Shown here: piece by piece, positions 11,972 through 35,085 of the stretch | Layout: the number at the start of each line of letters is the position of its first letter | Position numbering within the stretch: the first letter of the stretch is position 1 | DNA from: an uncultured Caulobacteraceae bacterium | GTDB lineage: Bacteria > Pseudomonadota > Alphaproteobacteria > Caulobacterales > Caulobacteraceae | Length of the DNA: 64,000 nucleotides | Direction: 5' to 3' | Assembly (NCBI GenBank): GCA_903872075.1 | Contig: CAIQJF010000086.1 | Coordinates: forward strand, 1 to 64,000 | Made by a program: the position numbers and the translations under genes | Notes under the pieces: model-generated | The model's database searches: none | The model's input: the letters and a program-made list of their open reading frames with translations, nothing else | What the model was told of the DNA's origin: nothing

Positions 11972-13594
11972 TCAGCCCTGACCGTAGCCGAACCGTTCGA
12001 TCCAGGGCGCGAGATGCGGCAGGGCCGGCGCCAGCTGGTCGGCATAGCGGCGCCACTGCCCGCCGCCGTCATAGAGACCGCGGGCCACCTGGGTGGCGCT
12101 GGGGGTGGCGATCGAGCGCCGCGTGCCGCCCGCGTCGAAGCGGCGCAGGTCCTCGCTCCAGCCCAGGCCGATGAAATCGCAGACCGCCCGCGTCGCGCCA
12201 TCGAAGTCGCCCACCAGGTCCTCGTAGCGGTGGCGGTGGATGCGCAAATCGAAGCGCTGCTCATAAAGCGCCGAGAGGCTCATCACCTGGGCGTAGAACC
12301 GGGCGGACCCCTCCAGCGTGAGGAACTCGAACATCGACGGGTTCACCCGGAAGCGCTGGCGAAAGCAGCTGAGCACCACGTCGCGGGGATCGCGCACCGC
12401 AAAGAGGATGCGGGCCTCCGGGAACAGCTTGGCGATCAGAGGCAGTTTGATGGAATTGAGCGGCAGCTTGTCGATGAAGATCCGCCCGGCCGGATCGCCG
12501 CCGAGCTCGCGCACCCGGGCCCAGTAGAGCGCGCGGTGACGTTCGGCGTCCGCCTCGGAGATCGCGGCCAGACGGTCGAGGGTCGCGGGGCCGCGCATGA
12601 ATTCCATGGTGGCGTCGGTAAGGGTCTCGCGCTCCTCGGAGGCGCTGACGCGGGGCGAGGTGGTCAGGACGCGTTCCAGCAGGGTGGTCCCCGATCGCGG
12701 GAATCCGAGCAGGAAGACATGGGCGGCGGGATCGTCGGAGGTCGGTCGGGCCGGCGCGCCACGCCAGGCCTCGGGCGGCGCTGTCTCAAAATAGCGGGCG
12801 ACCCAGGTCAGCATGGCCGGCACGGTCTGCACGCCGGGGCCGGCGAAGCGAGGGGCGTAGAAGGCGCGAAGGGCGGCGTTGGCTGCCGTGAAGCGCGCGA
12901 AGGCGTCGGCAGGACGGCCAAGTCGTTCGAGGGCGTCCCCGAGCTGGCCCTGGGCCTGCGCCTGGTCGATGGGCGAGAGGGTCGCGTCGCTGAGCAGGGT
13001 CAGCAGCCGCAGTCGGGCTGCGTCGGGGGCGCCTTCGGCCGTCTCGGCGGCGGCGAGCGCCAGGGCGGCGGTCGGATGGCGCGGCTGCATGGCCAGCGCG
13101 CGCTCGGCCAGGGACCGCGCCGTGGGCCAGTCGGCCGCCCGCGCCGCCAGGGCCGCCAGCCGGGCCACCGGGGTCGGATCGCGGGGCTCGATGCGCGCGG
13201 CGGCCTCGAAACTGGCGCGAGCGTCGTCGAGCTCGCCGACGTCTTCGGAGACCCAGCCGCGGTTGAAATGGGCCGGGCCGAAATCGGGATTGACCGCCAG
13301 CGCGGCCGCGAAAGCCTCGAGGGCCTCGAAGGGCCGCTGAAGATTGGCCAGGCACAGGCCCAGGGCGTTGAGGGTCGGCACGTCGGCCGGGGCGAGAACG
13401 CGGGCGCGCTGAAGATCGGCGAGCGCGGCGTCCAGGCGCCCGGCGGTCTCGGCGCGCCAGGCCCGGAGGTTCAGGAACAGGGGATGCTCCTCGCCCCGCG
13501 CGAGAGCGGCCTCCGCCAGATCCACCGCGCGCTCGATGGTCTGGGCGCGCAGGGCGTCCATGACCGGCCCGAGGGCGGGCGGCGCGGCCGTCAT
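11972..13594 (-). CDS. TPR-containing sulfotransferase
   Basis: 540 residues from the ATG beginning MTAAPPALG. Residues about 20-240 are TPR-like helical repeats (for example LNALGLCLANLQRPFEALEA, then FNRGWVSEDVGELDDA). The C-terminal half is a Sulfotransfer_3-type domain: the 5'-phosphosulfate loop FPRSGTTLLE near residue 300 and the 3'-phosphate loop FAVRDPRDVVLSCF near 405. Such enzymes move sulfate from PAPS to an alcohol or phenol. No signal peptide is seen, so it is cytoplasmic. It shares its whole architecture and many segments with the gene at 22476-24101. It lies 10 bases after the DUF1295 gene. Confidence 0.87.
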   Translation of the reverse strand: MTAAPPALGPVMDALRAQTIERAVDLAEAALARGEEHPLFLNLRAWRAETAGRLDAALADLQRARVLAPADVPTLNALGLCLANLQRPFEALEAFAAALAVNPDFGPAHFNRGWVSEDVGELDDARASFEAAARIEPRDPTPVARLAALAARAADWPTARSLAERALAMQPRHPTAALALAAAETAEGAPDAARLRLLTLLSDATLSPIDQAQAQGQLGDALERLGRPADAFARFTAANAALRAFYAPRFAGPGVQTVPAMLTWVARYFETAPPEAWRGAPARPTSDDPAAHVFLLGFPRSGTTLLERVLTTSPRVSASEERETLTDATMEFMRGPATLDRLAAISEADAERHRALYWARVRELGGDPAGRIFIDKLPLNSIKLPLIAKLFPEARILFAVRDPRDVVLSCFRQRFRVNPSMFEFLTLEGSARFYAQVMSLSALYEQRFDLRIHRHRYEDLVGDFDGATRAVCDFIGLGWSEDLRRFDAGGTRRSIATPSATQVARGLYDGGGQWRRYADQLAPALPHLAPWIERFGYGQG

Positions 13595-13604
13595 GGCGAT
13601 GGTC

Positions 13605-14408
13605 TCAGGCCTTCTTGGGCGGCAGGGGAATGAAGCCCGAGGTCCGTTGGACATAGGCTTCGTACTCCGGCCGCTTGCGCCGCATCCGCCCTTCAACGGT
13701 GGGCACCCCACTCCACTTGGTCAGCAGGGTGGTGATCAGGATCGGCCCCGGCATCGACCAGATGGCGACATCGAAACCCGCGTCCACACAGATCACCCAC
13801 AAGCCCCACCAGACGCAGGCGTCGCCGAAATAGTTGGGATGGCGCGTGTAGCGCCACAGGCCGCTCTGCAGAACCTTGCCGGCGTTGGCCGGATTGGCCT
13901 TGAAGGCCACCAGTTGGAAGTCGCCGATGCTCTCGAACAGGATACCGAAGACAGCCAGGGCGATTCCCGCCCAGGCCACCGGTCCGAGGTGCTGCGACTC
14001 GCCTAGCTGACCGACCTGCACCGGCAGGCTGACGATCATCTGGAGCGGCAGTTGCAGGGCGAAGACCAGCAGCAGCGAGGCCTTGGCGTAACCCCACCCG
14101 CGTTCCTTCTGGGCCAGGGCCATCATGGTGGCGTAGCGACGGTCCGGCCCGTGCCTGCGCCAGCGCCACAGCAGATAGGACCCCAGACGCACGCCCCAGA
14201 CCGAGCACAGGACGGTCAACGCAAGGGCGTGCGGGCCGACGCCGCCCACGAACAGGAAGCTGGCCCAGGCGTTGACCACCATCCCCAAACCCCACCAGCT
14301 GTCGATGAAGGACGGGTCCCGGGTGGCCAGATTCACCAGCCACAACAGGACGAACAGCACGGTGGAGATGGCCAGATTCTGAAGCAGCAGCTGGGCGTAG
14401 TCGGGCAT
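13605..14408 (-). CDS. DUF1295 / steroid 5-alpha-reductase-like membrane protein
   Basis: 267 residues, with about six or seven membrane segments starting at residue 10. The C-terminal part carries the isoprenylcysteine-methyltransferase/5-alpha-reductase-like motif GLWRYTRHPNYFGDACVWWG and ends RPEYEAYVQRTSGFIPLPPKK, both hallmarks of DUF1295. Family members are thought to be NADPH-dependent lipid reductases or methyltransferases of the membrane; the substrate is unknown. It sits 10 bases after an SDR gene, so the pair may act on one lipophilic substrate. Confidence 0.88.
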   Translation of the reverse strand: MPDYAQLLLQNLAISTVLFVLLWLVNLATRDPSFIDSWWGLGMVVNAWASFLFVGGVGPHALALTVLCSVWGVRLGSYLLWRWRRHGPDRRYATMMALAQKERGWGYAKASLLLVFALQLPLQMIVSLPVQVGQLGESQHLGPVAWAGIALAVFGILFESIGDFQLVAFKANPANAGKVLQSGLWRYTRHPNYFGDACVWWGLWVICVDAGFDVAIWSMPGPILITTLLTKWSGVPTVEGRMRRKRPEYEAYVQRTSGFIPLPPKKA

Positions 14409-15733: not shown

Positions 15734-16267
15734 TCAGTTGTCGCGATGCACCCGGATGGAACTCTCTCCAGCCAGCTTCAGCATGAAGCTGCCGAGCGCC
15801 GCGCGCCGGATGACGGCCTTCTGGCCGGCCTTCGGCGACGCATCCAGCGGCTCGCTGTCGATCTGCCGCCAGACCGCGCCGTCGTCGAGCACAACGACCC
15901 ATTTGCCGGCATTGTTACGCTCCGCGTGCGACACCGTGACGGCGATATGGTCGTTCTCCTCGACCTTCTCACCCCGGTCGAACATCGACAGCGAGGGAAG
16001 GGAGAGACCAAAGGCCTGACGGCGGACCGTCCGGCGCTGCTCGCGATCGATGGTGATGAGGTCGCCGGTCTGATCCGCCTGGGCCAGGGTTCCCACGGCC
16101 TTATCGAAACAGGCGAGGCGCTGGGTGTTGTCGGCGACCGCCCGGCAATCGAGCACCTCCTGCATAACCGGAGCCCGTTTGGGCGATTCCACCGCCTGGG
16201 CGGCAAAGGCGGAAAAAATCACCGCCAGACCGCAAACTTTCGCGAATTCAATCCCTTTGGCGCGCAC
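15734..16267 (-). CDS. Exported protein of unknown function
   Basis: 177 residues from a GTG with GGAG 7 bases upstream. A signal peptide (residues 1-21, ending FAAQA) predicts export. The mature part starts with a paired-cysteine segment, CRAVADNTQRLACFDKAVG, seen in various small periplasmic proteins. The rest is predicted beta-rich (VVVLDDGAVWRQID) with a basic end. I do not recognise a function. It is divergent from the TonB receptor gene. Confidence 0.75.
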   Translation of the reverse strand: MRAKGIEFAKVCGLAVIFSAFAAQAVESPKRAPVMQEVLDCRAVADNTQRLACFDKAVGTLAQADQTGDLITIDREQRRTVRRQAFGLSLPSLSMFDRGEKVEENDHIAVTVSHAERNNAGKWVVVLDDGAVWRQIDSEPLDASPKAGQKAVIRRAALGSFMLKLAGESSIRVHRDN

Positions 16268-16499
16268 CGTGGTTCTCCGTCTCAACGTTTGCTGGCCCGT
16301 GATTAGACTCACCCGCCTCTCGCCACGCAATCTGTGACCGTAAAGTAACAGGGGCGCCACGAATGGGTTACGGCGACGTAATGATCGTTGACCGCCTCGC
16401 GCGAGCGACCCTAACTGATGGGAACCGGGGGGTTTTCACCGGGATTCATTCACGCTCACGGCCCATCGCCCCATCCCAGGACGGCGATTCGGCCTGTTC

Positions 16500-16512: not shown

Positions 16513-19500
16513 TTGACCATGTCGACCACACGCGCCAGGCTGCTGGCGTCGTCCATGATTACCGGGGCCGCCTTCGCGGCCGCCTCCACGACCGGAGCCT
16601 ATGCGGCCAACGCCACGGCCGATGCCGCCGCCGCCGCCCCGGTCGTGCAGGAACTGGTTGTCACCGGATCGCGCATTCCGCAACCGAACCTGACCAGCGT
16701 CAGCCCGCTGACGACGGTCACCAGCGCCGAAGTCCGGCTCACCGGCACCTCGAACGTCGAATCGCTTCTGAACAACCTGCCCGCCGCCTTCGCCTCCCAG
16801 TCGGGCGAAGTCTCCAACGGCTCGAACGGCACGGCCCAGGCCGACCTTCGTAACCTCGGCTCCAGCCGCACCCTGGTGCTGGTCGACGGCAAGCGCATGA
16901 TGCCCGGCGACCCCGGCAGCGTCGTTCCCGACCTGAACAACATCCCGGCCGCCCTCGTCGACCGCGTCGACGTGGTCACCGGCGGCGCCTCGGCCGTGTA
17001 CGGCTCCGACGCCGTGGCCGGCGTGGTGAACTTCATCCTGAAGAAGAACTTCGAAGGCATTCAGGTCGACTACCAGTACAGCTTCGAGAACCATCAGCAG
17101 GGCAACAAGGACGCCCTTGGCTTCCTGACCGCCTTCAAGACGCCGATCCCGCACGACGTCGGCGCGGACGGCGGCAAGCACAGCGTGTCGATCATCCTCG
17201 GCGCCTCGTCGCCGGACGACAAAGGCAACGTCACCGCCTACCTGACCTATCGCCACAGCGACCCGATCCTGCAGAAGGCCCGTGACTTCGCCGGCTGCGG
17301 CATCGCGACCGTCAACAACAACACGCACATCTGCGTGGGTTCGTCGAACAGCGCCTACGGCCGCTTCGACTCCACGGCCGCCAACCCCGACGCGCCGGTG
17401 CCGAAGTTGAAGAAGCAGAACCTGGCCGACAATCCGGACGGCTCGAAGACCTTCGTGCCCTACACCAGCGCCCTGGCCTATAACTTCAACCCGCTGAACT
17501 ACATCCAGCGGGAAGACGAGCAGTACACCGCCGGTTTCTTCGCCCACTATGAAATCAACAAGATGGCGGAAGTCTATTCCGACTTCATGTTCATGGACGA
17601 CCAGACCAACGCCCAGATCGCCCCGTCCGGCCTGTTCCGGAACTCGGGTCCGAACCTGGCCACCGGCTACACCATCAACTGTAATAACCCGCTGATGGGC
17701 ACCACCCCCGACTTCCACGGCCTGACCCAGGCCCAGGAACTGGGGTGCACCAATCCCGTCCCCGGCGCCACCGGCGGCCAGTACGTCCAACTGCAGTCCA
17801 TCGGCTACCGCTTCGCCGCCGTGCCGCGCGTCTCCGACATCAACCACACCGACTACAAGATCGATGTGGGCCTGAAGGGCGACCTGGGCAGCGGCTGGTC
17901 CTACGACGCCTTCCTGCAGCTCGGCGTGGCGCGTCTCAACACGCACATCACCGGCTACGGTTCGGTCAACAAGATCGCCAACGCCCTGAACGTGGTCTAC
18001 GGCTCCGACGGCAAGACCCCGGTCTGCGTCAACGGCGGCAGCGCCTGCGTTCCGCTGGACATCTTTGCGGCCCAGAGCGCCAACATCAGCCAGGCGGCCT
18101 ATAACTACGTCCTGGCCAGCGCGTTCACCGCCGGTGAGACCACCCAGCAGATCGCCAGCGTCAACCTGACCGGCGACCTCGGCCGCTACGGCGTCAAGAG
18201 CCCCTGGGCCGATGAAGGCGTGGGCGTCAACTTCGGCGCGGAATATCGCCGTGACTTCCTGAAGCAGAACTTCGACGTCGAACAGCAGCAGGGCGACCTG
18301 TCGGGCGGCGGCGGTCAGGCTCTGGACGTCCGGGGTGCGACCAACGTGAAGGAAATCTTCATGGAAGCCCGGGTCCCGCTGGCTCATAACCAGCCCTTCA
18401 TCAAGGACCTGACCCTCGACACAGGCTACCGCTTCTCGCACTACAGCCTCGCCGGCGACACCAACACCTACAAGTTCGGCCTGGAATACCGGCCGATCGA
18501 CGACGTGCTGATCCGCGCCAGCTTCAACCACGCGGTTCGCGCGCCGAACGTTCAGGACCTCTACGCCCCGAACGTCGCCGGTCTCACCACCTATCAGGAC
18601 CCCTGCGGCCTGGACGATAAGAACCACGTGGCCGCCAGCCTCGCCGCCTGCCAGAACACCGGCATGACGGCCGCCCAGTACGGGGTGACCAACAACTGCC
18701 CCTCCAACCAGTGCTCGGCTCTGTTCGGCGGCGGCGCCATCTCCGGTCTGAAGCCGGAAGACGCCGACACCTACACCGTCGGCGCCGTCTATCAGCCCAG
18801 CTGGCTGCACGGGTTCAGCATGTCGATCGACTATTTCGACATCAAGGTGAACAACGTGATCTCCGCCGGCGTGGCTTCGCCGTCGACGATCATCAACGAC
18901 TGTCTGTCCAACGCCGCCAGCGCGTTCTGTAAGCTGATCCATCGTGACCCGACCACGGGCGGTCTGAACACCGCCCAGGGCTATGTGCTTCAGACGCAGG
19001 CCAACGCCGGCTTCATCGCCACCGACGGTATCGACTTCTCGGCCAACTACCGGTTCACCCTCCCGAACTGGTACAAGGGCGAAAGCCTCGGCTCGCTGGC
19101 CGTCGCGTTCGTGGGCACCTGGACCGATCACCTGACGGCTCAGCCCAGCCCCGGTGGCGGCACCTACGACTGCGCCGGCCTCTATGGCGCGGCCTGCTCG
19201 AACCAGTTCGGTTCGCCGGTGACGCCGCACTTCAAGGCCGAGACCCGCTTCACCTGGGTCACCCCCTGGAAGCTCACGGCCTCTCTGAACTGGCGCTACC
19301 TGGGCCCCGTCACCCTGGACTACCTCTCCTCGAACCCGCTGCTCAACAACCTGTCCTCGGACTCGGTTGAAGGCCGCCTCCATGCCTACAACTACTTCGA
19401 TCTGGCCTTCACCTATAAGGTCAAGGACGGTCTGGTGCTGCGCGCCGGTGTGAACAACCTGTTCGACATCGACCCGCCCGTCATCGACGGCAACAACATC

Positions 19501-19599
19501 GGTATCGCCGGCCCGCCCTACGGCAACGGCAACACCTTCCCCGGTGTTTACGACTCCCTGGGCCGCAAGATCTTCGTGGGTCTGACCGCGAACTTCTAA
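16513..19599 (+). CDS. TonB-dependent outer-membrane receptor
   Basis: 1028 residues. A signal peptide of about 35 residues (ending AYAANA) is followed by a TonB-box-like QELVVTGSRI, a plug domain (about 45-175, with LRNLGSSRTLVLVDGKR and GGASAVYGSDAVAGVVNF) and a beta barrel ending in Phe (LTANF), as outer-membrane insertion requires. The barrel has 14 cysteines in seven close pairs, mostly in regions that look like surface loops. There is no N-terminal FecA-type signalling domain. These receptors import large ligands such as glycans, peptides or chelates. It is followed by a strong terminator and then by the oxygenase/sulfotransferase cluster, whose product or substrate might be its ligand (inference). 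Confidence 0.95.
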   Translation: MTMSTTRARLLASSMITGAAFAAASTTGAYAANATADAAAAAPVVQELVVTGSRIPQPNLTSVSPLTTVTSAEVRLTGTSNVESLLNNLPAAFASQSGEVSNGSNGTAQADLRNLGSSRTLVLVDGKRMMPGDPGSVVPDLNNIPAALVDRVDVVTGGASAVYGSDAVAGVVNFILKKNFEGIQVDYQYSFENHQQGNKDALGFLTAFKTPIPHDVGADGGKHSVSIILGASSPDDKGNVTAYLTYRHSDPILQKARDFAGCGIATVNNNTHICVGSSNSAYGRFDSTAANPDAPVPKLKKQNLADNPDGSKTFVPYTSALAYNFNPLNYIQREDEQYTAGFFAHYEINKMAEVYSDFMFMDDQTNAQIAPSGLFRNSGPNLATGYTINCNNPLMGTTPDFHGLTQAQELGCTNPVPGATGGQYVQLQSIGYRFAAVPRVSDINHTDYKIDVGLKGDLGSGWSYDAFLQLGVARLNTHITGYGSVNKIANALNVVYGSDGKTPVCVNGGSACVPLDIFAAQSANISQAAYNYVLASAFTAGETTQQIASVNLTGDLGRYGVKSPWADEGVGVNFGAEYRRDFLKQNFDVEQQQGDLSGGGGQALDVRGATNVKEIFMEARVPLAHNQPFIKDLTLDTGYRFSHYSLAGDTNTYKFGLEYRPIDDVLIRASFNHAVRAPNVQDLYAPNVAGLTTYQDPCGLDDKNHVAASLAACQNTGMTAAQYGVTNNCPSNQCSALFGGGAISGLKPEDADTYTVGAVYQPSWLHGFSMSIDYFDIKVNNVISAGVASPSTIINDCLSNAASAFCKLIHRDPTTGGLNTAQGYVLQTQANAGFIATDGIDFSANYRFTLPNWYKGESLGSLAVAFVGTWTDHLTAQPSPGGGTYDCAGLYGAACSNQFGSPVTPHFKAETRFTWVTPWKLTASLNWRYLGPVTLDYLSSNPLLNNLSSDSVEGRLHAYNYFDLAFTYKVKDGLVLRAGVNNLFDIDPPVIDGNNIGIAGPPYGNGNTFPGVYDSLGRKIFVGLTANF

Positions 19600-19627
19600 G
19601 CCAAAGGCGCAAGCCAAAAACAAATCG

Positions 19628-19659
19628 GGCGGCGGAGTGAAAACTCCGCCGCCTTTTTT
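19628..19659 (+). terminator. Rho-independent terminator after the TonB receptor gene
   Basis: Perfect 10-base stem GGCGGCGGAG / CTCCGCCGCC with loop TGAAAA and six T. It lies 28 bases after the stop and separates the receptor transcript from the downstream genes. Confidence 0.95.
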
Positions 19660-19707
19660 ATTGATCCGAACAGCGACGCCGACGGCGTGCTGGATCGCTG
19701 GCCGAGC

Positions 19708-20007
19708 CTACCGCTCAGGCGCGCGCGGCACGTCTTCGATCTTGTCGGTCTTGTTGCGCGCCGCGACAGCCATATCAGTCCACTCCTGACGCGTGTGGCA
19801 GATCTTGTGAACACCGAGCCGGGTGCCCGTCTCTTCCTGCCGCTTGCAGATGACCACGTCCGGGTCGAGGCGCGATGCGGCAGTCGGCGCGGCGGGGGCC
19901 GGCAAAGGCGGCATCGGCGCGGGCGCGGCGGGGTCACCGGCCGCGAAAGCCGGCGCGCCGCAGAACAGCTGAACGGCGGCGAGAGCCGCGGCGAGCATGG
20001 GTCTCAT
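19708..20007 (-). CDS. Small exported protein with two cysteines
   Basis: 99 residues. A signal peptide (ending AFAA near residue 23) is followed by a Pro/Ala-rich linker (residues 24-45) and a conserved-looking core VICKRQEETGTRLGVHKIC then HTRQEW. Similar small proteins occur in Caulobacterales and sphingomonads, without known function. It sits alone on the minus strand between the TonB receptor terminator and the hydroxylase gene. Confidence 0.75.
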   Translation of the reverse strand: MRPMLAAALAAVQLFCGAPAFAAGDPAAPAPMPPLPAPAAPTAASRLDPDVVICKRQEETGTRLGVHKICHTRQEWTDMAVAARNKTDKIEDVPRAPER

Positions 20008-20059
20008 GGCGAAATCTCCGAGGGTCGACTAAAGTGGTTCCCGTCAATTCCTTTTAACG

Positions 20060-20078
20060 CGCCTTGATTTGCAAGGCG
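20060..20078. repeat. Inverted repeat upstream of the beta-hydroxylase gene
   Basis: CGCCTTG-ATTTG-CAAGGCG, 7-base half-sites, between the small exported protein and the hydroxylase gene, which diverge here. It could be an operator or a hairpin in the leader. Confidence 0.4.
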
Positions 20079-20130
20079 ACGGCGGGGGCCGGCGAATCCT
20101 TTCAGTTTGGTTCAAATTCAGAGGCAAAAC

Positions 20131-21321
20131 GTGTCCCACCCCCACAGCGCGACGGTTCACAACGCCGAAGCCGTCGCGGCCATGAAGGCCGGCCAGCCCA
20201 TCCAGGCCCGGGCCATGGCCGAGGAGGCGCTTCAGGACCATCCCGAGGACGCTTCGCTCTGGCTCAACCTGGCGGCGGCCTGCCGGGCCCTGGGCGACAT
20301 AGACGCCTCGCTCGGCGCGGTGGAAGGCGCGTTACGGGCGGAGCCGCGATCGTTTCTCGCCCTGCTGATGAAGGCCTCTCTGCTGGAGCGGCGGGGCGAC
20401 CTGCGACAGGCCGGCATCGGCTACGGGATCGCCCTGACCCAGGCGCCGCCGCCGGAACTTCTCGACCAGCCCACCCGCCGGGCCCTCGAGCACGCCCGCG
20501 CCTTCCACGCCGACTATGTGAGGGGCTTTCGCGAACGCCTCCTCGATGAGGTCTCCGACGCCAAGGGCCTGGGAAGAACGGCCGAGAGTCGTCGCATTGC
20601 CACCTTCGTCGACCATGTGATCGGACAGCGTCGAATCTTCCATCAGGCGCCGACGGCCTTCTACTACCCCGGCCTGCCCTCGATCGAATTCTATCCCCGC
20701 GAGGACTTCCCCTGGCTGGACGCCATCGAGGATGCGACCAACGCCGTGCGGCGCGAACTGCTCGAGGTCATGGCCGACGACTCGATCGCCGACCGCTTCA
20801 CGCCCTATGTGTCCTATCCCGACGGCGTGCCGCTGGACCAGTGGGCCGAGCTGAACCGCTCGCCGCGCTGGAGCGCGTTCTTTCTCAAGGATCAAGGGCT
20901 GCCCGTCGCGGGGAACGCCGAGCGGTGCCCGGCCACCATGGCCGCCCTGGCCGGCGCGCCGCAGCCGCAGGTGGTCCATCGCTCGCCGGCGGCCATGTTC
21001 TCCCAGTTGAAGCCGCGCACGCGCATTCCGCCGCACACAGGGGTCAGCAACACGCGTCTGGTGGTTCACCTGCCCCTGATCATCCCGTCGGACTGCGGCT
21101 TCCGGGTGGGCAACGACAGTCGTCCCTGGCACGAGGGGCAGGCCTGGGTGTTCGACGACACGATCGAACATGAGGCCTGGAACCTGAGCGACGTTCCGCG
21201 AACGATCCTGATCTTCGACATCTGGAGCCCGTTCCTGTCGCAGGTCGAGCGCGACCTCATCTCCCGCGTCACGGCGGCGGCGGACTCCTTCAACGAGGCC
21301 GCGCCCGACTCCAGCCTTTGA
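20131..21321 (+). CDS. TPR-containing aspartyl/asparaginyl beta-hydroxylase-like protein
   Basis: 396 residues from a GTG with GAGG 6 bases upstream. Residues 10-125 are TPR-like (MKAGQPIQARAMAEEALQDH, then LWLNLAAACRALGDIDASL). The C-terminal 190 residues form the AspH double-stranded beta-helix. The iron ligands of AspH are two histidines only; here these are His302 (PPHTG) and His347 (DDTIEHEAWN), with Arg357 for 2-oxoglutarate. The human enzyme has the same TPR-catalytic layout and hydroxylates Asp/Asn in EGF domains. No signal peptide or membrane segment is seen, so it acts in the cytoplasm. It is the first of four co-directional genes (gap to the next, 91 bases). Confidence 0.9.
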   Translation: MSHPHSATVHNAEAVAAMKAGQPIQARAMAEEALQDHPEDASLWLNLAAACRALGDIDASLGAVEGALRAEPRSFLALLMKASLLERRGDLRQAGIGYGIALTQAPPPELLDQPTRRALEHARAFHADYVRGFRERLLDEVSDAKGLGRTAESRRIATFVDHVIGQRRIFHQAPTAFYYPGLPSIEFYPREDFPWLDAIEDATNAVRRELLEVMADDSIADRFTPYVSYPDGVPLDQWAELNRSPRWSAFFLKDQGLPVAGNAERCPATMAALAGAPQPQVVHRSPAAMFSQLKPRTRIPPHTGVSNTRLVVHLPLIIPSDCGFRVGNDSRPWHEGQAWVFDDTIEHEAWNLSDVPRTILIFDIWSPFLSQVERDLISRVTAAADSFNEAAPDSSL

Positions 21322-21412
21322 CGGCGCCAGACGAGACCTCCGCAATGGCCCGCATGGACACTCGCGCGGCAAGTCGGCAGACTCGCGTCCCTATCTTCGA
21401 GGTGTTGGTCCC

Positions 21413-22378
21413 TTGACGCAGACAACCGACGTGACAGCGCCGCGCAACGCCGCGGACATGGCCGATCTCGGCGGCCGATTGTTGATCGGCCGCGACGCCC
21501 CCCGCAACCCTGAGCGCGGCCTGACCATGCTCAAGGCGGCGGTGGCCGCCGGAGACGCCGGGGCGGCGAGCCTGATGGCCGTTCTGCACGGCGCCGGCGC
21601 CTGGATGCCACAGAGCTGGGACCGCGCCCTGGATATGCTGGAGACCGCAGCCGTCCTGGGCGGCGCCGGCGCCCGGGGTCAGCTCCGCCTGCTGGGTGGC
21701 CCCGCGGGCGGCGAATCGCCCGACCACTGGCGCGCGCTGCGCCGGCGCATCGACCTGGCGCCCTGGCTGGCGGCGCCCAACCGCCGGGTGCTGTGGGAGG
21801 AGCCGCGCGTGCGGATGTCGGACGGCTTCGCGCCGGCCGGCGTCGGCCCCTGGATCATCAACAGCGTGCGCGGCAAGATGCGGCAAGCTCTGATGTACCA
21901 CGGCGACACCAAGACCGAGGTCGTCGATCCGCACCGCTCGTGCAGCGATTATGAGTTCGACCTGCTGGCGTCGGACCTGGTCCTGACCCTCGTGCGCCAC
22001 AGGATCGCCGCCGCAACAGGCCTGCCCGAGGCGGCCATGGAACCGCCCCGCGTGTTCCACTACGCGCTCGGCCAGGACATCAAGGCCCACTACGACCGGC
22101 TCAACGACGGCATCGGCAACTATGCCGGCAGCGGCTATCAGGGCGACCGGATCGTCACCTTCCTGCTCTATCTGAACGACGATTTCGACGGCGGGGAACT
22201 GGAGTTCCCCCTGGTCGGGCAAAGGTTCAAGGGCCATGAGGGAGACGCCATCTATTTCGCCCATGTCGATCAGACCGGCGGACCGGATAAAAAGAGCCTG
22301 CACGCCGGCCTGCCGATCCGGCGGGGCGAGAAATGGGTCCTCTCTCAGTGGATTCACGACCGGCCGTTGACCACGTGA
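21413..22378 (+). CDS. 2OG-Fe(II) oxygenase, prolyl-4-hydroxylase type, with Sel1-like N-terminus
   Basis: 321 residues, starting with TTG 8 bases after GAGGTG. Residues 30-95 resemble two Sel1/TPR-like repeats (GLTMLKAAVAAGDAGAASLM and ALDMLETAAVLGGAGARGQL). The catalytic domain (about 200-321) has the facial triad His226-x-Asp228 (AHYDRL) and His297 (SLHAGLP), with Lys307 to bind 2-oxoglutarate. The family hydroxylates proline or other residues in peptides, or free substrates. It lies between the AspH-like and sulfotransferase genes. Confidence 0.9.
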   Translation: MTQTTDVTAPRNAADMADLGGRLLIGRDAPRNPERGLTMLKAAVAAGDAGAASLMAVLHGAGAWMPQSWDRALDMLETAAVLGGAGARGQLRLLGGPAGGESPDHWRALRRRIDLAPWLAAPNRRVLWEEPRVRMSDGFAPAGVGPWIINSVRGKMRQALMYHGDTKTEVVDPHRSCSDYEFDLLASDLVLTLVRHRIAAATGLPEAAMEPPRVFHYALGQDIKAHYDRLNDGIGNYAGSGYQGDRIVTFLLYLNDDFDGGELEFPLVGQRFKGHEGDAIYFAHVDQTGGPDKKSLHAGLPIRRGEKWVLSQWIHDRPLTT

Positions 22379-22475
22379 CGGCCGACGCCTTTGCGGCCCT
22401 GCCGAATGATGCGAAGCCCTGGCTTCGCGCCAGAATCCCAAGGTTTGCCTCCATGTTCCAGATCGCGGCCCGGCC

Positions 22476-24101
22476 ATGAGCCTGCTCGACGACGTCAACA
22501 CCGCCATCTCCGCCGGCGCCTTCGATCGGGCCGCGGATCTGGCCGCGACCGCGCTGGACGAGGGCGAGCGCGACGCCGCCCTGTTCAACATCCTGGGCTT
22601 TCGGGAGTCCGAGGCGGGCCGCTACCGACCGGCCCTGGCGCTGCTGGATCAGGGTCTGGCCCTGGCGCCCCAGGACGCCAACCTGCTCTATTCGCGCGGT
22701 TTCTGCCTGTTCCGGCTAGGACGCGACGAAGAGGCCCTGGGCGCCTTCAACGCCGCCCTGGATGTGCGGCCACACTATGCAGCCCCCCTGCACCACAAGG
22801 GGATGATCTATGAGCGCAACGGCCAGGACGACGCAGCCGAACGCTTCTACGCCGAGGCTCAGGCCTGTGATCCGCGCTACGAGGACCCCTATGCGGGCCT
22901 GGCCTCCGTCGCGGCCACGCGTGGCGATTTCGTCCGGGCGCGAGACCTTGCCCAGCGCGCCCTGGCCATCAGCCCTGGCCACACCACCGCTCACCTCGCC
23001 CTGGCCAAGGCCGAGTTCGACGAAGGCCGGTTCGAGACCGTCGTCGCCCGGCTGGAGCCCATCCTCGCCGACCCCGGCCTCGACAACGCCGACCGTCCGG
23101 CCTTCCTGGCCCTGCTCGGCGACGCCCTCGATGGCCTGAAGCGACCCGACGAGGCCTTCGCCGCCTGGACGCAGGGCAAGGCCCTGTCACAGGCGCAATA
23201 TGCCGGCACGCCGCTGGCCGAGACCGCCCATCGCCATCTTGCGCAACTCGCGGCGTTGAGACCCGTCGTCGACACGCTGGGGGCGTTTCCGCCCGGCGAC
23301 CTGGCGCCCGCTCCCGGCGGCCCGAAAGCCCATATCTTCCTCGTGGGCTTTCCGCGCTCCGGCACGACCCTGCTGGAACAGGTCCTGGCCAGCCATGACG
23401 AGGTGGTGACCCTTGAGGAGCGGCCTTTGCTGGAGACGGCGGAGCTGGAGTTCCTGAGCACGCCCGAGGGGCTCAGCAGGCTGATGGCGGCCGGGGACGA
23501 CCTGCTCGACCCCTACCGGGAACTCTACTGGCGGCTTGTGGCGGACCATGGCCTCGACGTGCGCGGCAAGGTGTTCATCGACAAGCTGCCGCTGGCCAGC
23601 CTACTGATCCCCCTGATCGCCCGGCTGTTCCCCGGCGCGCGATTCCTGTTCGCCGAGCGCGATCCCCGGGACGTGGTCCTGAGCTGCTTCCGCCGGGCCT
23701 TCAAGATCAACCCGGGCATGTACCAGTTCGTCACCCTCGACGGCGCGGCGCGGTTCTATGACGGGGTCATGAGCCTCGCACACGTGTATCGGGGCCTGGT
23801 CGCCGACCGCGTGCATGCGGTCCGCTACGAGGCCCTCGTGGCCGATTTCGAGGGCGAAACGCGGGCCATCTGCGACTTCATCGGCCTGCCCTGGACGGAA
23901 AGCCTGCGCGACTTCGCCGCCACCGCGCGAGGCCGCACTATCCGCACGCCCAGCGCCGCGCAAGTTCGCAAGGGGCTTTACGCCACGGGCGCCGGCCAGT
24001 GGCGGCGCTACGAGAGCCAGCTGGCGCCGGTGTTGCCGATCCTGGCGCCCTGGGTTTCGGCCCTCGGCTATGACACGTCGGATGAAGAGGTCGCCCCATG
24101 A
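22476..24101 (+). CDS. TPR-containing sulfotransferase
   Basis: 541 residues. About six TPR-like repeats fill residues 5-240 (for example LYSRGFCLFRLGRDEEALGA, LHHKGMIYERNGQDDAAERF). The sulfotransferase domain has FPRSGTTLLEQ near residue 292 for the PAPS 5'-phosphosulfate and AERDPRDVVLSCF near 395 for the 3'-phosphate. It is a paralogue of the gene at 11972-13594, with the same layout and a shared C-terminal segment (RTIRTPSAAQV here; RSIATPSATQV there). TPRs suggest that the acceptor is a peptide or protein. It overlaps the next gene by 4 bases (ATGA). Confidence 0.9.
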   Translation: MSLLDDVNTAISAGAFDRAADLAATALDEGERDAALFNILGFRESEAGRYRPALALLDQGLALAPQDANLLYSRGFCLFRLGRDEEALGAFNAALDVRPHYAAPLHHKGMIYERNGQDDAAERFYAEAQACDPRYEDPYAGLASVAATRGDFVRARDLAQRALAISPGHTTAHLALAKAEFDEGRFETVVARLEPILADPGLDNADRPAFLALLGDALDGLKRPDEAFAAWTQGKALSQAQYAGTPLAETAHRHLAQLAALRPVVDTLGAFPPGDLAPAPGGPKAHIFLVGFPRSGTTLLEQVLASHDEVVTLEERPLLETAELEFLSTPEGLSRLMAAGDDLLDPYRELYWRLVADHGLDVRGKVFIDKLPLASLLIPLIARLFPGARFLFAERDPRDVVLSCFRRAFKINPGMYQFVTLDGAARFYDGVMSLAHVYRGLVADRVHAVRYEALVADFEGETRAICDFIGLPWTESLRDFAATARGRTIRTPSAAQVRKGLYATGAGQWRRYESQLAPVLPILAPWVSALGYDTSDEEVAP

Positions 24102-25813
24102 CGACTGCCGCCCCCACCCTCGGTGAAATCCAGAACCGGCTCGAGACCGCGAGCAAGCTGCTGCGCGACGGCCGCCGGGCCGAGGCCGTGGCCGCCCTGC
24201 GCGTGCTCATCGCCATGGCGCCCCGCGTCTCCGAGGCGCACCGCCTGCTGGGCGTGGCCCTGGGCGAGATGAGCGAACTGCCGGCGGCCGAGGCCGCCTA
24301 TCGCGCCGCCCTGGCCCTGGACCCGCGCTCGGCCCGCGCCGCCACCGGCCTGACCGAGGTGCTGCTGGCGGTGGATCGGGGTCCCGAGGCCATCGCCCTG
24401 CTTGAGCCGTTCGTGAACGATCAGACCAGCAATCTGAGCCTTCTGACCTATCTGGGCCTGGCCTTGCAGGCGGCCAACCGCGCTGAAGAAGCGGTGCCGA
24501 TCCTTCGCCGGGCCACCTGGGCCGCGCCGGACAGCGCCGTGGCCGACCATAACCTGGCCAGCGCGCTGGGCGACGTGCAGAACTTCGTCGAAAGCGAAGT
24601 GGCGATCCGCCGCGCCCGCGCCCGCGGCCTCGACGCCCCGGAGATGTGGCTGGTGTGGGCCAGGTCCGTGTGCGGCCAGGGCCGTCTCGGCGAGGCCGAG
24701 GCGCTCTATGTCGAAGCGATCAAGCGCAAACCCAACTTCGAGAAGGCCATCGCCGAACTGGCCCATACCGTGTGGATGCACACCGGCCAGCGCGAGCCGA
24801 CCCTGAAGGTGTTCGAGGACGTGTTCTCGCGGACGCCGGCGGCGCCGGAACTTCTGCTTCAGAAAGCCAAGCTGCTGGACACCATGGGCGATGTCGCCGG
24901 CGCCTATGAGGTGCTGATGCAGGCCCTGGCCCTGAGGGACGACGCGGCCATCCACCTGCCCGCGGCCCAGCTCGCCGTTCACTTCGATCCGGAGAAGGCC
25001 CTGCACCACGCCCAGCGCACCCTGGCGCTGCAGCCTGACGTCCCCTCGCACAGCGCCGCCCTGTGCCAGGTCAACCTGGCCCTTGGCCGCGCCGACGAGG
25101 CGGCGGTCATCGCCGAGGACCTCTGCCGCCGCCTGCCGGACGATCAGTACTCCATCGCTCTGCTGGCCACGGCCTGGCGGATGATGGGCGACCCGCGCTA
25201 CCGCCGACTCTACGACTATGACACTTTCGTCGGCCGGTCGATGATCGACACGCCGCAGGGCTGGCCGAACCTTGAGAGCTATCTCGCCGACCTGCGCGAG
25301 GCGCTGCAGCCGCTGCACAGCTTCAGGGGACATCCGGCCGGCCAGTCCCTGCGCCACGGCTCACAGACCCAGCAGGACCTCACCCGCTCGGACCACCCGG
25401 CGATCCGGGCCTTCTTCAAGGCCATCGACTATCCGATCCGCCGGCACATCAAGTCGCTCGGTCCTGGCGCCGATCCGGTCCGGCGGCGGCAGACCAAGGC
25501 CTATGACTTCAACGGCGTCTGGTCGATCAAGCTCCAGCCGGTGGGATTCCACGTCAACCACCTGCATTCCAAAGGCTGGTTCTCGTCGGCTTGCCACATC
25601 GAACTGCCCCGGGCCATCGACCGTGAGCCGGAGGGCTGGCTGAAGTTCGGCGAGCCGGGCATCCCCACCAAGCCGCACCTCGATCCGGAAATGATGGTGA
25701 AGCCCAGGCCGGGCCAGCTGGTGTTGTTCCCCTCCTATATGTGGCACGGCACCGTGCCCTTCACCGGCGACGAGGAACGTCTGACCATCGCCTTCGACGT
25801 CGTACCGGCCTGA
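24098..25813 (+). CDS. TPR-containing 2OG-Fe(II) oxygenase (PF13759-like)
   Basis: 571 residues. Residues 5-350 are a long TPR array (EAHRLLGVALGEMSELPAAE, LTYLGLALQAANRAEEAVP and more). The C-terminal 200 residues match the putative 2OG-Fe(II) oxygenase group that includes TIGR02466: GFHVNHLHSKGW near residue 488 gives the first iron ligands, and MWHGTVPF near 548 followed by RLTIAFDVVP gives the second histidine and the 2OG arginine. There is no export signal. It is translationally coupled to the sulfotransferase, so both probably act on the same target. It ends one base from the convergent sppA stop. Confidence 0.88.
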   Translation: MTTAAPTLGEIQNRLETASKLLRDGRRAEAVAALRVLIAMAPRVSEAHRLLGVALGEMSELPAAEAAYRAALALDPRSARAATGLTEVLLAVDRGPEAIALLEPFVNDQTSNLSLLTYLGLALQAANRAEEAVPILRRATWAAPDSAVADHNLASALGDVQNFVESEVAIRRARARGLDAPEMWLVWARSVCGQGRLGEAEALYVEAIKRKPNFEKAIAELAHTVWMHTGQREPTLKVFEDVFSRTPAAPELLLQKAKLLDTMGDVAGAYEVLMQALALRDDAAIHLPAAQLAVHFDPEKALHHAQRTLALQPDVPSHSAALCQVNLALGRADEAAVIAEDLCRRLPDDQYSIALLATAWRMMGDPRYRRLYDYDTFVGRSMIDTPQGWPNLESYLADLREALQPLHSFRGHPAGQSLRHGSQTQQDLTRSDHPAIRAFFKAIDYPIRRHIKSLGPGADPVRRRQTKAYDFNGVWSIKLQPVGFHVNHLHSKGWFSSACHIELPRAIDREPEGWLKFGEPGIPTKPHLDPEMMVKPRPGQLVLFPSYMWHGTVPFTGDEERLTIAFDVVPA

Positions 25814-33131: not shown

Positions 33132-33758
33132 CTATCGCCAAGCGTAATTGAAGCTGACGCTTATCCTGGGTGTCTTGGCGGCGTTGGCCAGCACCTCGTG
33201 GCGAAGCCAGCTCTCCCACAGGTAGATCACGCCCGGCGACGGCTGAAGCGTGACGAAGCTGCGAGCTGTTTCCGGCGCGTCCGAACGCCGGCGCGGCGCG
33301 GCCATCATCAGGGGCAAGCGCGGGTCCTCCAGCCGAAGGGCTCCGGCGCCAGGCGGCGTGGCCACATAGATCGTGCCGGAAACGACGCTGTGCGGATGGA
33401 TGTGGCCCGAATGCGCCGCGCCGGGCTTGAGGACATTGACCCACAGGCTGTCGAGCACCAGCCGTCCCGTCGGCCCGAGATCCAGCTCGGCCCCCTCGGC
33501 GAAGCTCTTCACGTGCCTGTCCAGGCGGGTCTTGAGCTGGCCGAAAACCGTCGCCCGCCGCGGCAGATCGTCGAGCGAGGCATAGGAGGTGTAGCCGCCG
33601 TAATTGTTGGCCTTGCACCAGGCCCGTCCGGCCTTGTCCTCCGCCGCCAGCATGCCGCAGGCATCCTCCAGTTCGGCGTTGAAGTGGGCGAACCCGCGTT
33701 CTCCGGCCAGGGAGGCCTCATAGACGCGGGTGACGAAGAGATCGCGGAACGCGGACAT
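33132..33758 (-). CDS. TIGR02466 family 2OG-Fe(II) oxygenase
   Basis: 208 residues from the ATG starting MSAFRDLF. The iron-binding region is HSGHIHPHSVVSGTIYV, and the distal half has WESWLRHEV with a histidine and RISVSFNYAW with the 2OG arginine. This is the TIGR02466/PF13759 layout. The catalytic domain is related to the C-terminus of the TPR-oxygenase at 24098-25813. The substrate is unknown. It lies 28 bases after an MFS transporter gene on the same strand. Confidence 0.88.
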   Translation of the reverse strand: MSAFRDLFVTRVYEASLAGERGFAHFNAELEDACGMLAAEDKAGRAWCKANNYGGYTSYASLDDLPRRATVFGQLKTRLDRHVKSFAEGAELDLGPTGRLVLDSLWVNVLKPGAAHSGHIHPHSVVSGTIYVATPPGAGALRLEDPRLPLMMAAPRRRSDAPETARSFVTLQPSPGVIYLWESWLRHEVLANAAKTPRISVSFNYAWR

Positions 33759-33786
33759 GGCGAGGCTTCCAGATGGGCGTCGGGAG

Positions 33787-35085
33787 TCAGGACGCGGCCA
33801 GTTCCTCCAGCACCTTGGCGTCACCGGCCGGGTTGGCCTGGCCGTCGGCGGTGGCGAGGATCTCCTTGGGGATCAGCAGCAGGACCGGCAGCATCAGGGC
33901 GTAGACCACGGTGATGGCGATGACGCAGTACAGAAAGCCGTGCTCAGGGCTGCTGGTGTAGATCTTCGAGCCCAGCAGGTCACCGACGCGGGTGGACAAC
34001 AGATTCCCCGACTCGACCATCATCATGAGGGTCCCCTGAAGTCCCGGCGGGCATGAGCGCATGGCCAGATCAAACAGCGACGCGGCGGCGATGCCCCCCA
34101 TGGCCCCGATCGGCGCAGCGGCCCAAAGCGCATCGGTGGCGGAGTGGATCAGCGCCAGGGGCACCATCTGCGGAATGGTGATGATGATCCCCCAGAACAG
34201 CAGCTTGCGAAGCGACACCCGCTTGCACAGCCAGCCGTAGAGAAAGAACACCGGGATGAAGGAGGCGACAAAAATACCCTGGAAATCGCCGTAGATCTCG
34301 TCCGAGGCGTGCAGGTGGTTGGTCAGATAGTACTGCAGCGGCGTGTTCGCGCCCGGCGCGAACTGGAACATGAAAATCAGCAGGACGGCCGGATAGATCG
34401 CCTTGTGGCGGAACAGCCGCTTGATGTCCCCGACGATGTCCGCGCCGCGCGCCAGCGGTTGGTCATAGGTATGGGTGAACACCGCGCGGGGCTTCCAGAA
34501 ACCCAGCAGGCCGATGCCGCCGGCGAGAACCGCCAGCAGGACGAAGGTCTGAGACGTGCGCAGATGTTCGGAAATCCAGCCGGACGCAAAGGCGCCGGCG
34601 AGCACCGGCAGGCTGCTGACGATTTGCCAGAGCGCGCTAAGACGCCCGGACATCAGACGTTCCTGGCTGACGAGGGCGAGAAGCCCCTGATAGGCGGCCG
34701 CGACAAACCGCGAGGCGGCCATCACCAGTAGCATGCCGATGAACAGCGACTGGTAGCTGAGATGGGACAGCGCCATCCAGACGAACACCGCGGCGGTCAG
34801 GGGCGCGAAGATCAGGAAATAGCCGCGGTCCCTCAGGCCGAACGGATTCCAAAGGTCTCGGGCGAACCCGAAAAGAAAGGCCAGGAACAACGGGATCGCG
34901 GTGAGCACGCGGAACACCGACACGTCCGTGGCGGTGGCGTGGAGGTTGTTCTTGAGCATGTAGGAGGTGGTGATGTCGACGAGATAGCCGCTCGGGGACG
35001 ACAGATAGACGAGCAGGGTCAGGGCGCCGAAATAGCCGTAGGTCTGGCCGACGCCCGAGGCGCCCCGCTCAGGCGAATCCGTCAT
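33787..35085 (-). CDS. MFS-type transporter, BT1/folate-biopterin-like
   Basis: 432 residues with about twelve hydrophobic segments. A charged loop near residues 205-225 separates the two halves. Segments such as APGANTPLQYYLTNHLHASDEIYGDFQGI recall the folate-biopterin (BT1) transporter branch of the major facilitator superfamily, but the match is by eye only. The substrate is unknown. Its coupling to the TIGR02466 oxygenase gene (28-base gap) suggests they handle the same compound. Confidence 0.72.
   Translation of the reverse strand: MTDSPERGASGVGQTYGYFGALTLLVYLSSPSGYLVDITTSYMLKNNLHATATDVSVFRVLTAIPLFLAFLFGFARDLWNPFGLRDRGYFLIFAPLTAAVFVWMALSHLSYQSLFIGMLLVMAASRFVAAAYQGLLALVSQERLMSGRLSALWQIVSSLPVLAGAFASGWISEHLRTSQTFVLLAVLAGGIGLLGFWKPRAVFTHTYDQPLARGADIVGDIKRLFRHKAIYPAVLLIFMFQFAPGANTPLQYYLTNHLHASDEIYGDFQGIFVASFIPVFFLYGWLCKRVSLRKLLFWGIIITIPQMVPLALIHSATDALWAAAPIGAMGGIAAASLFDLAMRSCPPGLQGTLMMMVESGNLLSTRVGDLLGSKIYTSSPEHGFLYCVIAITVVYALMLPVLLLIPKEILATADGQANPAGDAKVLEELAAS

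Follow-up and report, generated by a model that had tools for sequence, protein, structure and literature searches.

A TonB-dependent receptor beside several 2-oxoglutarate oxygenases and a sulfotransferase: one form of a modular gene association in Proteobacteria

Described systems and the Caulobacteraceae locus

The closest precedent for the locus described here is CciT-CciO of Caulobacter crescentus, with its kin Fiu-YbiX and PiuA-PiuC. According to the portions of the CciO paper considered here, CciT strictly needs the cytoplasmic dioxygenase CciO, yet CciT protein is still made without it (PMC12004947), which raises the question of why a receptor in the outer membrane should need an enzyme of the cytoplasm. 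We analysed a 64,000-nucleotide stretch of DNA (the whole of it hereafter called the window; positions 1 to 64,000 of contig CAIQJF010000086.1) from an uncultured Caulobacteraceae bacterium, whose source assembly (GCA_903872075.1) amounts to 4.36 Mb in 100 contigs and is 93% complete. The window carries a cysteine-rich TonB-dependent receptor (TBDR) gene and, beyond it, four co-directional genes for an AspH-type 2-oxoglutarate (2OG) oxygenase with tetratricopeptide repeats (TPRs), a prolyl 4-hydroxylase (P4H)-type oxygenase, a TPR-sulfotransferase, and a TPR-2OG oxygenase of the 2OG-FeII_Oxy_5 family (OG5 below). The four genes named in a preliminary description of this stretch are indeed present by open reading frame listing and Pfam, and the last two overlap by 4 bases as it had stated. 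The principal genes are as follows.

16513..19599, + strand: TonB-dependent receptor, cysteine-rich (PF07715, PF00593; alternative start ATG 16519)
20107..21321, + strand: AspH-type 2OG oxygenase with N-terminal TPRs (PF05118; alternative start 20182)
21413..22378, + strand: prolyl-4-hydroxylase-type 2OG oxygenase (PF13640; alternative start ATG 21458)
22476..24101, + strand: TPR-sulfotransferase (TPR and PF13469)
24098..25813, + strand: TPR-2OG oxygenase, 2OG-FeII_Oxy_5 (TPR and PF13759)

The locus shares with CciT-CciO the placement of a TonB receptor and a cytoplasmic Fe(II)/2OG dioxygenase at one site, and differs from it in several respects. Going by the same portions of that paper, CciT-CciO has one dioxygenase, iron uptake was demonstrated, CciT is related to Fiu, and the word sulfotransferase does not appear (PMC12004947); the present locus has several oxygenase families (PF05118, PF13640 and PF13759), no PiuC/YbiX-type gene is labelled in the window, and its receptor probably belongs to another group, as judged from the description of CciT. 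PiuC/YbiX-type genes do occur in 7 of the 80 loci of the present kind considered below. The locus is a multi-enzyme variant of the receptor and cytoplasmic dioxygenase theme, not a wholly new kind of system, and searches of open-licence PubMed Central (PMC) papers listed no account of this gene composition. The family to which it belongs is a richer version of the theme: it brings together several types of oxygenase, sulfotransferases, candidates for exported substrates and a partial oligopeptide-importer link, and it makes the dependence of receptor on dioxygenase testable by proteomics.

Recurrence across Proteobacteria

The association of TBDR and AspH genes is real, recurrent and modular, and is broader than the finding first reported for the window. 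Scanning a genome collection with an AspH alignment gave 79 distinct loci. They stand for the top 80 matches among at least 597 stretches and so lean towards the query; with the window they make 80 AspH loci, whose record titles place them in the Alpha-, Beta- and Gammaproteobacteria. Gene labels are from home-made profiles unless Pfam or NCBIfam is named. A TBDR lies within 10 kb at 64 of the 80 loci, with 50 of the 80 scoring >1000 bits to the window-type receptor profile, and 43 of the 53 loci flanked by 6 kb or more on each side have one. Recurrence of a TBDR and a 2OG oxygenase at one locus extends across the Proteobacteria and includes AspH loci in named strains of Nitrospirillum, Caulobacter, Phenylobacterium, Massilia and Duganella.

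Linkage is also evident in 118 related genomes that were not chosen by AspH, where 21 of 78 subfamily receptors (all TBDR rows at E up to 1e-150) have AspH within 10 kb, whereas about 0.4 would be expected. Of these genomes, 37 have both a subfamily receptor and AspH, and 20 of the 37 have a linked pair. Expected numbers assume uniform genomes of 3.5–3.6 Mb and ignore relatedness; on that footing the main pairs are linked at least 50-fold above expectation, and OppA with TBDR or AspH about 15- to 25-fold. Counts use 80 of 93 AspH rows (13 weak or fragmentary rows were dropped, including G062:C82, which adjoins a receptor), 99 of 108 OppA rows (8 weak or fragmentary rows and G113:C1:2328173, which is near none of the other genes, were dropped), 90 of 115 small-protein rows (those at E up to 1.1e-9; of the 25 dropped, two from G074 lie near AspH) and 108 of 124 VasI-like rows (most of the 16 dropped are additional pieces of a match already counted at that place).

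Within 10 kb of AspH, the 80 loci have a sulfotransferase in 32 cases, an OG5/TIGR02466-type gene in 27, a P4H-type gene in 8, a VasI-like gene in 23, OppA in 8 and an OppB-type gene in 12, although OppB labels in some betaproteobacterial loci may denote other transporters. Neighbourhood analysis, which had been proposed as a check on the window's gene set, gives a divided result: AspH with a TBDR is common, whereas the exact four-gene set is rare, with 5 of 80 loci (L084, L085, L096, L153 and the window), all Caulobacteraceae by record title, and with 3 of 80 when a window-type receptor at >1000 bits is included. AspH, a sulfotransferase and an OG5/TIGR02466-type gene are found together at 21 loci. 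Gene content recurs in alpha-, beta- and gammaproteobacterial loci with shuffled order and orientation, and subsets are found: Massilia, Duganella and other betaproteobacterial loci have AspH without a sulfotransferase, and L167, L176 and L179–L181 have a sulfotransferase without AspH. L084 and L085 are Caulobacteraceae metagenome-assembled genomes (MAGs), the closest named relatives of the window genome in the scan. Twenty further stretches were chosen for having a receptor without AspH nearby. Several neighbour clusters have no Pfam match, and at least one of them (c37) is the opposite-strand shadow of a real gene.

Enzymes, receptor and exported neighbours

Candidate catalytic positions of the four enzymes, which we presume to serve in metal, 2OG or 3'-phosphoadenosine-5'-phosphosulfate (PAPS) binding, are invariant in alignments of 41 (AspH), 10 (P4H-type), 83 (sulfotransferase) and 29 (OG5) rows, and none of the four N-termini has a visible signal sequence as judged by eye, in agreement with the preliminary description on both counts. 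The AspH-type protein (PF05118, E 1e-41, with TPRs by Pfam) is the sole PF05118 match in its genome. Its conserved part begins near 20170, and the likely start is ATG 20182. H289 and H334 are invariant in two alignments (27 and 41 rows; L034, L037 and L041, with a stop in frame, were left out of alignment A1), and the stretches around them align with human AspH, which is the nearest solved relative of the oxygenase domain (profile E ~6e-45; single sequence 2e-22). The ten best fold matches of a model built from 41 sequences (predicted local distance difference test, pLDDT, 88.7) are all AspH structures; its oxygenase domain superposes fairly well on 5apa (template-modelling score TMt 0.83, root-mean-square deviation (rmsd) 3.5), the whole chain does not superpose well (TM 0.42–0.48, rmsd ~13), and the next match, L-proline cis-4-hydroxylase, scores much more weakly. 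The structure alignments A4 and A5 hold the window and scan loci only, and A5 includes L114, a contig labelled Klebsiella pneumoniae. Human AspH acts in the endoplasmic reticulum lumen on EGF-like domains and has the same order of TPR and oxygenase domains; unlike it, the bacterial protein has no export signal by eye. With PF05118, two conserved histidines and a TPR part, the protein is a putative Asp/Asn hydroxylase. Its best NCBIfam matches are OlsC and LpxO, at 87.5 and 56.5 bits, far under the cut-offs.

The P4H-type protein (PF13640, E 6e-12) has prolyl 4-hydroxylases as its best Protein Data Bank (PDB) matches (E 2e-18) and keeps H226, D228, H297 and K307 (HxD...H...K) in 10/10 rows. Sel1 repeats had been assigned to it; its N-terminal part looks Sel1-like by eye, and Pfam returned no Sel1 match at E up to 0.01 or in a second search at E up to 1, where HMMER filters drop most weak matches, so that the assignment is not upheld. 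The TPR-sulfotransferase (PF13469, E 9e-35) keeps R294, G296 and E315 in 83/83 rows, and the best PDB matches of its catalytic part are the protein-tyrosine sulfotransferases TPST1/2 (E 2e-12). Its P-loop, the PAPS-binding motif, and the stretch with the candidate catalytic Glu315 align with TPST, which suggests a putative protein sulfation activity. Unlike TPST1/2, the window protein bears TPRs and has no export signal by eye; both its activity and its acceptor are putative. The OG5 protein (PF13759, E 7e-22) keeps H488, H490, H550 and R561 in 29/29 rows, and its domain has weak PDB matches only, to uncharacterised structures (E 0.03). As a set these enzymes resemble the protein hydroxylation and sulfation enzymes of animal cells. 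A family of ~330–350 residues stands beside the receptor at three other loci (L093:5387-6427, L118:1837-2838 and L112:13279-14337); two of the three members tested have a weak C-terminal Sulfotransfer_3 match below the cut-off, and it is perhaps a divergent sulfotransferase family.

Four further features lie around the receptor gene.

15734..16360, - strand: VasI-like secreted protein, divergent from the receptor (PF11319 below cut-off; family neighbourhood)
19627..19654, both strands: terminator-like stem-loop after the receptor gene (stems and T run; folding energy)
19708..20007, - strand: small secreted two-cysteine protein, convergent, between receptor and AspH (same frame in L084 and L085)
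11972..13711, - strand: second TPR-sulfotransferase (PF13469, E 3e-32; counterpart in L084 and L085, also on the - strand upstream of the receptor)

The receptor matches PF07715 (E 2e-18) and PF00593 (E 1e-30), and BtuB and CirA are nearest to its plug in the PDB. Twelve of its alignment columns have a cysteine majority, and in 10 of these the cysteine is present in 65 or all 66 of the module-linked rows. The cysteine-rich receptor does stand upstream of the enzyme genes as described earlier, but a strong terminator-like stem-loop lies between them: 19627–19654 forms a 12-pair stem with a T run on the + strand and an 11-pair stem on the - strand, with a folding energy of -26.6 kcal/mol (z -5.3). 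Because it directly follows the receptor gene, receptor and enzyme genes are probably transcribed separately. A tree of 85 receptors, made by one quick method from loci partly chosen by AspH, places most enzyme-less rows in paralogue groups of the genomes G024 and G025. These two genomes (L163–L172) have six and five receptor paralogues, most without labelled modification enzymes nearby. The receptor of the MAG contig L114 groups with that of L117 (Proteobacteria UBA964), and the Klebsiella contig is probably mislabelled or misbinned.

A partial link to an oligopeptide importer is seen at loci of this kind, and the VasI-like protein is a stronger bridge to peptide uptake than direct OppA linkage. 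In the 118 genomes, 35 of 108 VasI-like rows have OppA within 2 kb (0.11 expected) and 22 of 108 have a window-type TBDR at that distance (0.09 expected), with median gaps, within 3 kb, of 376 bases to OppA and 358 bases to the receptor. Identity with VasI of the type VI secretion system is not supported by Pfam: the PF11319 match (E 5e-5, 23.6 bits against a cut-off of 26.5) covers only model positions 1–27 of 184. The AlphaFold model (pLDDT 79) has no PDB match at E up to 0.001. OppA lies within 10 kb of the receptor in 4 of 99 rows (0.2 expected) and of AspH in 5 of 99 (0.3 expected). Five gammaproteobacterial loci (L088, L092, L094, L098 and L105, titled Nevskia, Stagnimonas, Nevskiaceae or Gammaproteobacteria) have a TBDR and AspH followed by opp genes in the same direction, with oppA, oppB and an oppD-type gene in 5/5 and a labelled oppC in 4/5. 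The Opp proteins tested are nearest to OppA, OppB, OppC and OppD in NCBIfam, all below cut-offs. Four of the five genomes have no PF00496 match other than the OppA of this locus, and the L094 genome has three, the one at the locus included. OppABCDF adjoins several loci of the present kind, with the VasI-like neighbour common to both.

The small protein (99 residues, a signal-like N-terminus and two conserved cysteines) is encoded in the same frame in L084 and L085 and is the sole match in the window genome. Its family is broad, with members in 64 of the 118 genomes; 14 of 90 rows have AspH within 2 kb (0.1 expected), and tandem copies stand beside AspH in G106 and G074. No convincing Pfam family was found for five members tested from other loci. 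Arrays of two to five small two-cysteine proteins also occur at L203–L211, from the same order of bacteria, mostly in ordinary surroundings and without AspH, so the small protein may or may not be an enzyme substrate.

A possible role in peptide uptake

We favour, tentatively and with a probability of roughly 0.4, the view that the locus is one form of a modular Proteobacterial system in which cytoplasmic hydroxylation and sulfation of exported locus polypeptides would serve TonB-dependent peptide uptake. The TBDR would take up a peptide or peptide-like ligand. Cytoplasmic AspH, P4H and OG5 enzymes (PiuC/YbiX elsewhere) would hydroxylate polypeptides and TPST-like enzymes would sulfate them, with TPR or Sel1-like N-terminal parts engaging the exported receptor, VasI-like protein and small two-cysteine protein. 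Modification would precede Sec export, and the modified proteins would make the uptake system work. A polypeptide substrate is suggested because of the three enzyme types and their repeat parts, a peptide ligand because of the Opp linkage, and action before export because the neighbours are exported and the enzymes have no visible signal sequence; a function in receptor-dependent uptake would follow from these. The nearest solved relatives of three of the enzymes (human AspH, TPST1/2 and P4H) act on polypeptides, which supports indirectly the peptide or protein substrate proposed for the pathway in the preliminary description. Its proposal that hydroxylation comes first and sulfation second is not supported: nothing points to a substrate common to the enzymes or to a sequence of reactions, and different loci carry different subsets of them. 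The observation made there is thus confirmed in part and its interpretation supported in part.

Several results weigh against the peptide-uptake reading. Of the 53 well-flanked AspH loci, ten lack a TBDR within 10 kb, and the AspH genes of those looked at are mostly orphans with ordinary neighbours. Among the VasI-like rows, 46 of 108 have no OppA, TBDR or AspH within 3 kb, and 71 of 90 small-protein rows have no AspH within 10 kb. OppABCDF is not seen beside the window receptor, the 93% complete window genome has no PF00496 (OppA) match, and for the Massilia loci L151 and L161 the one PF00496 match in each genome could not be assigned to the locus. The receptor is unsupported as an enzyme substrate. 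Columns of Asp, Asn, Pro, Tyr, Ser, Thr or Cys that are conserved in 90% of the 66 module-linked receptors were compared with 13 enzyme-less paralogues, and a single one, T650, falls below 60% there and so separates the two groups. Gene content, conservation and linkage point to no definite enzyme substrate, and linkage by itself names no mechanism.

Other explanations draw on the same evidence. The enzymes may act in the cytoplasm on an imported peptide or peptide siderophore, which they would oxidise and sulfate for iron release, for detoxification or to maintain a gradient. OppA linkage, direct or via the VasI-like gene, accords with this, as does Model 3 in the considered portions of the CciO paper, in which an imported substrate is oxidised (PMC12004947); it is hard to see what sulfating a nutrient after import would achieve, the missing OppA match in the window genome counts here as well, and the small exported protein beside AspH is left unexplained, which makes this explanation possible but doubtful. 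That small protein, with its tandem copies in G106 and G074, would instead be the precursor if the enzymes make the ligand, namely a ribosomal peptide that is hydroxylated, sulfated and exported, binds iron or signals, and returns via the receptor. A table in the part of PMC10040529 considered here offers a hint of such enzymes acting on ribosomal peptides: it has a lasso-peptide B2 protein, sulfotransferases and an aspartyl beta-hydroxylase in consecutively numbered clusters, which may or may not be neighbours. We consider ligand synthesis unlikely. The locus has a small secreted candidate for the precursor of a ribosomally synthesized and post-translationally modified peptide, and no maturation protease or dedicated exporter was recognised among those neighbours that are annotated; several of the tandem arrays at L203–L211 lie in ordinary surroundings without AspH; and 74 of 80 AspH loci, some on short contigs, have no small protein within 10 kb.

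Modification of lipids or other small envelope molecules, as by the PF05118 relatives OlsC and LpxO, would fit the NCBIfam matches of the AspH protein, distant as they are; among PDB entries, however, the oxygenase domain is closest to human AspH in both sequence and fold, TPRs are present, and three unrelated enzyme types point to polypeptides, so that a lipid substrate seems somewhat less probable still. Least probable is genomic hitchhiking, in which abundant families are adjacent without shared function. The window genome has 12 Sulfotransfer_3 and two PF13759 matches, and such abundance of sulfotransferases would favour chance proximity, but the eight other sulfotransferase loci fetched from this genome include two with a TBDR, and their fetched stretches contain neither AspH nor OG5 (at one of them, L050, a P4H-type gene lies ~12 kb from the sulfotransferase); the fold enrichments over uniform expectation given above also argue against it. 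Taken further than the tentative peptide-uptake reading, the data could describe a cytoplasmic counterpart, in many Proteobacteria, of eukaryotic secretory-pathway modification. AspH-, P4H- and TPST-like enzymes would hydroxylate and sulfate small polypeptides with cysteines ahead of their Sec export, and what they make would work with, or as ligands of, dedicated TonB-dependent peptide uptake; in this extended form the proposal is speculative and unlikely. If it is true, protein aspartyl hydroxylation and tyrosine sulfation before export would be a widespread bacterial process. The linkage data suggest a little-explored link between peptide uptake and protein modification.

Two other parts of the window were considered. 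An ATP-binding cassette (ABC) operon at ~58.7–64 kb, Dpp-like by cluster, was rejected as an oligopeptide importer, as its Pfam matches are of NMT1/BPD type beside a two-domain ABC ATPase. A TIGR02466 gene at 33132–33824 was not counted as part of the module, since 104 of 118 relatives have PF13759 matches and it adjoins a major facilitator superfamily (MFS) gene. This 2OG oxygenase and its MFS (BT1-like) transporter neighbour together span 33132–35085 on the - strand, and the oxygenase gene is probably ordinary.

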